64,000 nt of DNA from Sphingopyxis italica (GTDB lineage: Bacteria > Pseudomonadota > Alphaproteobacteria > Sphingomonadales > Sphingomonadaceae), in the NCBI RefSeq assembly GCF_011926545.1, contig NZ_JAATIT010000001.1, forward strand, positions 405,969-469,968, written 5' to 3'. Both the position numbers and the translations under genes were made by a program. The notes beneath the pieces were generated by a model that made no database searches, was not told where the DNA came from, and saw nothing but the letters and a program-made list of their open reading frames with translations. Shown here piece after piece: positions 12,663 through 52,797 of this stretch. Position 1 is the stretch's first letter. The number at the start of each line of letters is the position of its first letter.

Positions 12663-12928
12663 AGGGTCAGGACCCGTTGATTGCGCGCTCGAGGCGTCGA
12701 AATGGCAAAGATATCGTCTTCGGGCGGCTGCCGCGGGTAGCATCGCTACCCGCAAGGTCACTCGGAGGCGAGATCGAAGCCATTTCGGCGTCCCTTCGGG
12801 ATTTGATCGATTTTGTCCATGGTTGCGTCGGCAAGACTTGGAATATTTTCATATGCCTACGCCTTGCCTCCTAACCCTGAACAAAATCGCTTCAAACCTC
12901 GAACGTGCAATCAACGGGTCCTGACCCT
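12663..12928. mobile_element. 266-bp MITE-like element, copy 1
   Basis: Bounded by perfect 22-bp terminal inverted repeats beginning AGGGTCAGGACCCGTTGATT; pairing extends with mismatches to about 32 bp. A central perfect hairpin GCGGGTAGC-ATC-GCTACCCGC is at 12733-12753. It aligns end to end, with no gaps, with the reverse complement of 52532-52797 (187 of 266 identical by hand count). No transposase is encoded. An open frame of 65 codons (12677-12874, TTG start) runs through it. It could be non-autonomous mobile DNA or a REP-type element; the mobilising enzyme is not in the window. Confidence 0.85.
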
Positions 12929-52035: not shown

Positions 52036-52076
52036 CGGTGATCTCGTCTAGCGCGGACGGCACGAACTTGCACCTC

Positions 52077-52255
52077 CCCTCTCCCCTTGCGGGAGAGGGC
52101 AGCGAGAATTACGAGCTTGCTCGTTAGTCGCAGCGGGTGAGGGGTTGCGCTTGCAAAGCAAGCGCGTGCTCGCCATGCGAGCACTCACCCTCATCCAACT
52201 TCGCCTAGCCGCAAAGCGGCAAGGCTTCGTATCCTTCTCCCGTCAAGGGAGAAGG
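52077..52255. repeat. multi-hairpin structured repeat between recG and sdhE
   Basis: Successive perfect hairpins: CCCTCTCCC/GGGAGAGGG (52077-52099), CGAGC/GCTCG (52112-52123), a closing arm GGGTGAG/CTCACCC (52135-52141 with 52184-52190) that encloses GCGCTTGC/GCAAGCGC (52147-52165) and GTGCTCGC/GCGAGCAC (52166-52184), then CCTTCTCCC/GGGAGAAGG (52233-52255). The enclosed pair forms a three-way junction. Arms do not resemble tRNA. Confidence 0.75.
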
Positions 52256-52268
52256 GAAAGAGAAACAG

Positions 52269-52529
52269 ATGCAAGACCGCCTCAAACGCCTGAAATTCCG
52301 CGCATGGCATCGCGGCACGCGCGAGGCCGATTATATGATCGGCGGCTTTTTCGATCGCTATTCCAGTGAATGGGGCGAAGCGGAACTCGGCTGGTACGAA
52401 GCCGTTGTCGAGGAAGATGACGTCGACATCATGGCCTGGGCACTCGGCACCGGCCAGCCGCCCGCGCATCTGGATCGACCGGAGATGATCGCAGCGATGC
52501 GCCGACTGGATTATATTCCGCTGCCATGA
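52269..52529 (+). CDS. sdhE: succinate dehydrogenase FAD assembly factor SdhE
   Basis: 86 residues. The DUF339/SdhE motif is KFRAWHRGTREADYMIGGFF, with the RGxxE core, and the rest is the five-helix fold (ELGWYEAVVEEDDVDIMAWA). It promotes covalent flavinylation of SdhA. GGGAAAGAG precedes the ATG. The 266-bp element starts 3 bp past its stop; mfd follows on the same strand, so the element splits an sdhE-mfd pair. Confidence 0.92.
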   Translation: MQDRLKRLKFRAWHRGTREADYMIGGFFDRYSSEWGEAELGWYEAVVEEDDVDIMAWALGTGQPPAHLDRPEMIAAMRRLDYIPLP

Positions 52530-52531
52530 TC

Positions 52532-52797
52532 AGGGTCAGAATCCATCAAATACACGTTCGAGGTTTGAAGCAATTTTGTTCAGTGCGAGGCGGCCAGCGC
52601 AGGAAATATGTCGATATTTCCCAGCTTGCCAACGAAGCAATGGACAAAATTGGTCAAATCCCGAAGGGACGTCAAAATGGCTTCGATCTCGGGCCAAAGT
52701 CCCCTTGGCAACAGAACCACTGTTCCCGGCGGGTCCTTTGGCCCGATATCTTCGCCATTTTGACGCCTCGGACGTGCATTTGATGGATTCTGACCCT
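52532..52797. mobile_element. 266-bp MITE-like element, copy 2 (opposite orientation to copy 1)
   Basis: Terminal inverted repeats start AGGGTCAGAATCCATCAAAT; only one mismatch over about 24 bp. Central pairing is GGGCCAAAG (52691-52699) with CTTTGGCCC (52736-52744) and AACAG/CTGTT inside (52710-52724). Length equals copy 1 exactly. Its last base (52797) is the first base of the mfd TTG start codon. No transposase is present. Confidence 0.85.

Follow-up and report, generated by a model that had tools for sequence, protein, structure and literature searches.

A TA-flanked 266-bp mobile element of sphingomonads with a wobble-neutral terminal stem and inner hairpins of opposite strand polarity

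Introduction

In the 64,000-nucleotide stretch of the Sphingopyxis italica genome analysed here (the window), two 266-bp sequences, copy 1 at 12663..12928 on the plus strand and copy 2 at 52532..52797 on the minus strand, end in inverted repeats that differ between the copies and are self-complementary within each. What keeps the two ends of such a sequence paired as they change? An earlier note on this DNA had invoked selection or a mechanism maintaining self-complementarity, naming hairpin replication, gene conversion of the ends, and folded RNA or single-stranded DNA as options.

We argue for a reading to which, taken whole, we give a probability of about 0.7: the sequence is a MITE mobilised by an IS5 transposase, with exchange between its arms at the level of DNA and strand-specific RNA selection on its inner hairpins. 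Under this reading, an IS5-type transposase would move the element in trans. After insertion, the 32-bp arms would keep exchanging sequence as DNA, either by template switching between the inverted repeats during replication or by recombination between the arms; the arms would drift jointly without a preference for wobble pairs, and the element could flip in place. Selection for pairing would act on hairpin 1 as plus-strand RNA and on hairpin 2 as minus-strand RNA; in either case, this is the long hairpin that a transcript coming in from that side would reach first.

Results

Structure of the two window copies

Copy 1 and copy 2 align without a gap over 266 bp and are identical at 187 positions, exactly the length and count obtained earlier by hand. 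Their terminal inverted repeats, previously put at 22 bp or more, extend to 32 bp, of which 30 positions form Watson-Crick pairs in each copy. The left arm of copy 1 (12663..12694, plus strand) pairs with its right arm (12897..12928, plus strand); in the orientation of the element, the left and right arms of copy 2 lie at 52766..52797 and 52532..52563 on the minus strand. The copies differ at ten stem positions; at six of these, both sides have changed and each copy has a Watson-Crick pair.

The earlier description of the structure was right about the terminal repeats and left the interior undescribed, which holds two long hairpins, one small hairpin, and a TTTGA/TCAAA helix. In copy 1, these are hairpin 1 (12695..12790, plus strand, on which wobble pairs are favoured across copies), a short CCC-TTC-GGG hairpin (12792..12800, plus strand), and the TTTGA/TCAAA helix with hairpin 2 (12802..12896, minus strand, again the one on which wobble is favoured across copies). 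In copy 2, hairpin 1 is at 52670..52765 (minus strand) and the helix with hairpin 2 at 52564..52658 (plus strand, the wobble-favoured one). Folded as RNA with 4–5 flanking bases, the two window copies form closed multi-arm structures of −161.7 and −158.2 kcal/mol, with z scores of −15.0 for copy 1 and −16.5 for copy 2. As none of 200 shuffled sequences was equally stable, and as covariation exceeded all controls (see below), the pairing of the copies is not due to chance. At gathering thresholds, the sole Rfam match in the 64-kb window was tRNA, and a search with copy 1 alone gave best E values of 5.2 and 8 and no family.

Distribution and copy classes

The earlier note had called for a search of this genome and its relatives, and blastn and a pattern scan found many further copies. 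This genome carries at least 13 two-ended copies and one single-ended copy; copy numbers per genome are lower bounds because a limited number of candidates was scored in each. By blastn, the element was found in 20 of 41 genomes including this one, all 20 within the genus, and in none of 16 genomes from other families of the order; genus-wide, 62 of 80 genomes carried it at E ≤ 1e-30. The pattern scan of species genomes matched at least 119 stretches. Among the 80 pattern matches listed, four fell outside the Alphaproteobacteria (Chloroflexi, Myxococcales, Pirellulaceae, and a deltaproteobacterium); three of these lack a matching arm and one sits at the edge of its locus, and we take all four to be chance matches. 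The rest of the matches listed bear labels such as Sphingopyxis, Novosphingobium, Sphingobium, Erythrobacter, Tsuneonella, Croceibacterium, Altererythrobacter, Stakelama, and Sphingosinithalassobacter. Six plasmid records (Sphingopyxis, Sphingobium, Novosphingobium) also contain the element, whereas phage records had no match at E ≤ 1e-5 and viral contigs none by exact pattern.

Length is nearly constant, with 189 of 240 copies exactly 266 bp long. A 172-bp class of five copies (L077, L079, L099, L118, L124) is short of ~94 bp between the left arm and GGGATTTG and keeps hairpin 2 and matched arms; judged from spacing in the unaligned sequences, the missing part seems to be hairpin 1.

Insertion sites and target duplication

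The joined flanks of the 13 copies in this genome were searched in 40 genomes of the genus, and 40 matching stretches were aligned. Among the matches listed, relatives have uninterrupted sites for all 13 copies, which answers the earlier suggestion to look for empty sites. Once 266 bp are removed, these sites equal the joined flanks in length to within 3 bases, as expected of a 264-bp element with a 2-bp duplication. At three of the 13 sites (L004, L008, L011), some other genome also carries the element. Flanks differ between species by ~7–20%, and the insertions compared in this way are old.

Target-site duplication, also proposed as a check, was evident in the flanks. T occupies position −1 in 91 of 130 cases and A position +1 in 84 of 130, so in our reading TA duplicates enclose a unit of 264 bp, GGG..CCC; the 266 bp of copy 1 thus comprise this unit and one TA base per end. 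These flank counts speak against insertion without target duplication. TA is present on both sides in 129 of 240 copies and in 16 of 18 copies of two young bursts (13 of 15 in the 240-copy count under those names). It has decayed in both window copies: T 12662 and A 12663 form TA at the left end of copy 1, the right duplicate reads TC, and copy 2 has lost TA bases on both sides. Rebuilt targets fit YTAR in 120 of the 129 copies (CTAG 67, TTAA 22, TTAG 18, CTAA 13). By eye, relatives have TA exactly across the junction at no more than 2 of the 13 sites (L008, L011), and hence the TA duplication rests on flank statistics; at L003, the junction TA in the relative's uninterrupted site is one base off (by eye), and at several sites (L004, L005, L006) relatives differ from this genome by 2–4 bases at the junction.

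The two young bursts comprise nine copies in genome G054, which match the first at 258–266 of 266 positions and one of which is on a plasmid, and nine copies in genome G059. Sequence comparison thus establishes dispersal in many copies, uninterrupted sites, TA at the ends, ends shared with the IS5 family (see below), and recent bursts, and by the features tested the element is a MITE. At L249:1493-1501, CTGACCCT closes the left flank and is immediately followed by AGGGTCAG, which suggests that one element inserted at the tip of another.

Concerted change of the arms and inversion in place

In a gapless alignment of 40 diverse copies, 97.0% of 4000 cells pair, compared to 77.7% after shuffling and 31–43% when the partners were slid; every control was lower, and both partners vary in 72 of 100 pairs. 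The test of stem covariation that the earlier note had asked for thus gave pairing above all controls. Homologues whose ends fail to pair, which would have spoken against the proposal, did not appear: 94.5% of terminal cells are Watson-Crick in a set of 138 copies.

Copies at orthologous insertions show the arms changing in place. In 17 orthologous pairs, with 544 stem positions, we counted 32 double and 41 single changes in the terminal stem; across 2000 shuffles, double changes averaged 7.6 and never exceeded 15, compared to the 32 observed. Of these 32, 29 lead from one Watson-Crick pair to another; L023/L088 has six and L128/L141 five. These counts come from 18 orthologous pairs, of which L011/L363, with 34 double changes over the whole structure, was set aside as probably two different insertions (its inclusion would raise the terminal double changes to 43); L008/L135 and L327/L365, whose members differ in length, were left out. 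Not every pair is an independent case, as three of the 17 come from one trio (L046, L378, L381); two pairs have identical stems. The hairpins of the same orthologous pairs also hold double changes, and young copies within one genome differ in their arms, with variants that are matched by the opposite arm in some cases and not in others.

Arms also take part in inversion. In L322/L352, both flanks are common (93% and 90%) and their order is inverted; the two arms are identical, as are 198 of 202 inner bases, and thus the element was flipped in place. L150/L269 is a second likely inversion (flanks 83% and 81%, elements of unequal length), and L251/L215 is a weaker case.

Concerted arm change and inversion are therefore direct results of these comparisons, whereas the enzymes behind them are a matter of inference. 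The concerted in-place changes at orthologous insertions bear out the idea that the self-complementarity of the ends is maintained. Among the three options of the earlier note, conversion of the ends fits best, given the in-place double changes and an inversion that shows the arms to interact.

One form of this explanation is that the arms are homogenised by homologous recombination with conversion and not by template switching during replication, and we regard it as a real possibility at rather less than even odds. An imperfect repeat of 32 bp comes close to the shortest that RecA-type recombination can use, which weighs against it. The inversion in L322/L352, with the second likely one in L150/L269, is its expected product, and one study reports in-place inversions of this kind for insertion sequences of Wolbachia (PMC3004938). 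When replication switches template between inverted repeats, however, the spacer is likewise inverted and the arms are homogenised, according to two other papers (PMC8604942, PMC8794818). The DNA-level exchange that we favour embraces either route.

Wobble pairs separate the terminal stem from the inner hairpins

If a folded strand is what is kept, G.T pairs should exceed A.C pairs on that strand. In 91 copies, G.T:A.C was 45:52 in the terminal stem, 283:23 in hairpin 1 on the plus strand, and 4:29 in hairpin 2, corresponding to wobble on the minus strand. For 47 further copies, the ratios were 24:26, 154:2, and 2:25 for the terminal stem, hairpin 1, and hairpin 2, respectively, and for 21 copies from other genera or from sphingomonads without a genus name, a subset of the same pool that overlaps the first 91 copies, they were 10:15, 67:5, and 0:9. 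Parsimony over 186 copies, on a tree built from the same alignment as the pair counts, gave 59:68, 139:22, and 7:50. Pair counts used 266-bp copies only (189 of 240, 186 of them distinct; the other sets hold 91, 138, and 40), pairs touching columns fixed by the search pattern were excluded from the wobble and parsimony counts, and the polarity of hairpin 2 is based on few mismatches.

The routes of change differ as well. In hairpin 1, parsimony counted 111 returns to Watson-Crick pairs from G.T and 1 from A.C. In the terminal stem, it counted 438 direct changes from one Watson-Crick pair to another, with 3 returns from G.T and 10 from A.C. Unpaired bases in RNA are usually rich in purines, and purines make up 73% of unpaired plus-strand bases in hairpin 1 and 30% in hairpin 2, which is 70% on the minus strand.

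The opposite-strand wobble polarity of hairpins 1 and 2 is thus a direct observation. On the wobble counts, it looks as if hairpin 1 is kept as plus-strand RNA, hairpin 2 is kept as minus-strand RNA, and the terminal stem is kept in neither form. Folded RNA is therefore not supported as the cause of the terminal covariation, the terminal stem having no wobble bias, and is supported for the internal hairpins with their strand-specific wobble. From sequence patterns, we infer for the hairpins a role as RNA in 3′-end structure, processing, or protection of transcripts that read into the element. No U-tracts follow the hairpins (by eye), making them unlike intrinsic terminators.

These data bear on the proposal that the whole sequence is a functional structured RNA, in which all covariation, including that of the terminal stem, reflects compensatory selection for RNA pairing. 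Extreme stability, covariation, and the strong wobble polarity of the inner hairpins speak for it. We consider it improbable, however, because terminal A.C pairs are as common as G.T pairs in both copy sets, because the terminal stem changes directly and with few returns from G.T where hairpin 1 passes back through G.T, and because the copies match no Rfam family and are insertions with uninterrupted sites in relatives.

An ordinary decaying MITE, in which mutation and not selection gave the hairpins their strand polarity, also seems to us a poor prospect. In hairpin 1, C>T gives rise to G.T more often than any other change (107 of 139), as mutational bias would have it, but at paired sites A>G exceeds T>C (32:6). 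Unpaired sites of hairpin 1 show G>A 61 times and C>T 16 times, with G ~2.4 times as common as C, and not the C>T excess that this explanation needs, so mutational bias is unlikely. Moreover, the polarity switches over a distance of ~100 bp, and copies in the subset from other genera show it unchanged. Strand-specific RNA selection on the inner hairpins accordingly remains our preferred explanation of the polarity.

A candidate IS5-family partner

The earlier note had stated that no transposase gene is present; the element indeed contains none, and a likely trans-acting partner was found in relatives. An IS5-family left end followed by the start of a transposase frame was matched in 7 of 80 genomes of the genus (other rows of this search concerned a different part of the query or element ends only), and the same end and frame occur on some alphaproteobacterial plasmids, where several are annotated as IS5 family transposase. 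The partner end reads TAGG[GCT]TCAGGACC[CT]A in the six sequences compared, and up to 18 terminal bases are identical between element and partner. L285 and L288 contain both partner ends, 831 bp apart between the TA bases, and the two ends agree at 16 and 15 of 24 positions, respectively. The second partner frame matches NF033580 at 158.6 bits (cut-off 110); the first scores 97 bits with this model, below the cut-off of 110, and 78 bits with PF13340 (cut-off 34.3). A second IS5 class, with four copies of 895 bp in genome G054, has ends that resemble another arm class of the element.

From these shared ends, it is most likely that the element borrows an IS5-type transposase in trans. The partner probably belongs to the IS427 group, a name that rests on its size and 2-bp duplication. 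This genome has no PF13340 match and no partner-end match, and with no such transposase its copies look stranded at present. Given this absence and the presence of partner ends in only 7 of 80 genus genomes, the partner is deduced from its ends and not from co-occurrence.

Two other candidates were rejected. An IS630/Tc1-mariner partner, considered on account of the TA duplication, is represented by PF13358 in 6 of 18 genomes, and its ends do not match: terminal repeats at three of the six IS630 loci are unrelated to the element, and none were found at the other three. Beside the IS630 gene at L278 lies a stray IS5-type end, TAGGGTCAGGACCCATTAA, followed by the start of another transposase frame, and it was this end that pointed to the IS5-family partner. 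L278:881-1050 and L279 show an IS630-type transposon with its left end replaced by an IS5-type left end.

The IS5-type ends and the TA duplication in the flanks also bear on hairpin replication, for which we found no support. That the arms are made identical only at transposition, by a hairpin or by single-strand replication, with nothing acting afterwards, is very unlikely: young copies in the same genome do already carry arm variants, some matched and some not, as this would allow, but double changes between orthologous inserted copies (six in L023/L088, five in L128/L141) arose after insertion, and the TA duplication and IS5-type ends count against this idea too. A single-strand element of the Y1/HUH type (REPIN- or IS200/IS605-like, with a Y1/RAYT partner) would account for hairpins at the ends, and Y1 genes occur in a few genomes, one of them in G059 ~1.8 kb from a copy and outside the fetched locus, but Y1_Tnp (PF01797) is found in only 4 of 18 element-bearing genomes and is absent here, the four Y1_Tnp loci fetched hold no element-like sequence, and the TA duplication lies at symmetric YTAR targets, so we rejected this partner and hold the explanation to be extremely improbable.

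Gene context and reading frames

Many copies seem to abut stop codons. At 93 of 442 element ends, a coding-like frame leads up to the junction and would use the TAG there to stop, compared to 41 and 29 in the other two frames, by a GC3 heuristic and not by annotation; TAG is actually formed in 83 of the 93. With a CTAG target and an inward TAGG end, insertion into TAG or TAA re-creates TAG, which would explain the excess of stop codons. The frame test suggests that genes can tolerate an insertion in their stop codon since the TAGG end restores TAG. Transcription from the left would reach hairpin 1 before hairpin 2, and transcription from the right would reach hairpin 2 before hairpin 1, with the right polarity each time, and the sequence data would fit a portable 3′-end structure. 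The stronger proposal that the element is a mobile 3′ untranslated region that seeks stop codons, landing in TAG or TAA, re-creating TAG, and providing a hairpin from either side, is conceivable and rather doubtful.

By a heuristic applied to joined flanks, 60 of 204 insertions, including 6 of the 13 in this genome, lie inside a predicted frame, a placement that is unreliable, yet stands against a purely intergenic element. Among the other 144, 34 lie between convergent and 38 between divergent genes. By eye, neither window copy sits in the stop codon of a neighbouring gene. A distance of 22 bases separates copy 1 from the start of an Hpt-domain gene. Copy 2 is flanked on one side by a weakly SdhE-like gene (19.9 bits, cut-off 120), with its stop codon at 52527-52529, and on the other by mfd (983.7 bits, cut-off 800), the frame of which runs from TTG at 52797. 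The first T of this TTG is the outermost base of the element. Relatives at the copy 2 site seem, by eye, to have a tight junction and an ATG start of mfd, and it appears that the original start region of mfd was replaced at copy 2.

We also considered whether the element encodes a peptide. On the minus strand of copy 1, a frame at 12667-12852 begins with a conserved ATG ~14 bases downstream of AGGAGG. The ATG is found in 88 of 91 copies, and the frame, at minus positions 77-260, has mostly 61 or 63 codons. In 173 of 186 copies, it runs without a break as far as minus position 250, compared to 68 and 59 for the other frames, and it has 9 stop-making changes compared to 80 and 22 in the other two. 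Its nonsynonymous/synonymous ratio is 1.01 (1.15 and 0.78 in the others), and third codon positions are not the most variable. The ratio of ~1 argues that the minus strand is not coding, although not with certainty.

Discussion

If the reading proposed here is correct, a 266-bp sequence is shaped side by side by RNA selection in its hairpins and by DNA copying between the arms at its ends. Covariation is usually taken as proof of conserved RNA structure, and this element holds a stem that is probably a counter-example. One molecule combines a wobble-neutral stem, probably due to copying between DNA arms, with strand-biased stems, probably due to RNA selection. Comparing G.T with A.C separates the two causes and could serve to weed out false positives among candidate non-coding RNAs. 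The rate of in-place arm correction also becomes measurable in natural bacterial genomes, and a widespread mobile element of sphingomonads is described. To our knowledge, the opposite-strand polarity of the two hairpins, together with the built-in contrast to a stem that covaries without wobble, is new.

Several known systems resemble parts of this picture. Correia elements (NEMIS) of Neisseria, which target TA, are likewise short and dispersed, with inverted repeats and no transposase gene. They differ from the present element in sequence, host, and size, and here the ends are IS5-like and the hairpins have opposite strand polarity. ERIC and RUP, which are small, palindromic, and non-autonomous, differ in hosts and sequence, and the tie of RUP to IS630 did not fit the element here. 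In a review, transcripts of Correia elements are said to be open to cleavage by RNase III at the repeats, in-place inversion is reported for them, and ERIC at the 3′ end of Yersinia genes is described as affecting transcript levels (PMC10969869). In its folding at the level of transcripts, our element resembles both. The main text of that review contains no word beginning with 'sphing', and the best-ranked titles of the open-licence literature, which mostly excludes subscription journals, name no sphingomonad MITE of this kind.

The ends, TA duplication, and YTAR target are like those of the IS427 group of the IS5 family in Alphaproteobacteria. IS427 entries seen in a table of Paracoccus insertion sequences have lengths of 832–865 bp and direct repeats of 2 bp, with one of 4, and the 831 bp and 2-bp repeat of the partner fit these entries (PMC3281130). 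Unlike this group, the element has no transposase, and its arms in the window copies match at 30 of 32 positions compared to 15–16 of 24 for the partner ends. Double changes without wobble intermediates and inversion of the spacer are like quasipalindrome correction, and the template switching set out in PMC8794818 and PMC8604942 concerns rRNA genes and yeast coding DNA. Unlike those cases, the element has a spacer of ~200 bp, albeit a foldable one, and carries stems that are probably RNA-selected on the same molecule.

Two further arrangements were seen. On a Sphingobium yanoikuyae plasmid, two elements ~2 kb apart (L167:912-3267) enclose genes and adjoin an IS5-family transposase gene, possibly as a composite unit. 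In the window, 52070-52285 is another palindrome-rich intergenic repeat (CCCTCACCCGCTGCGACTA...CCCTCTCCCGCAAGGGGAGAGGG), and by eye a similar sequence flanks the IS insertion in L278.
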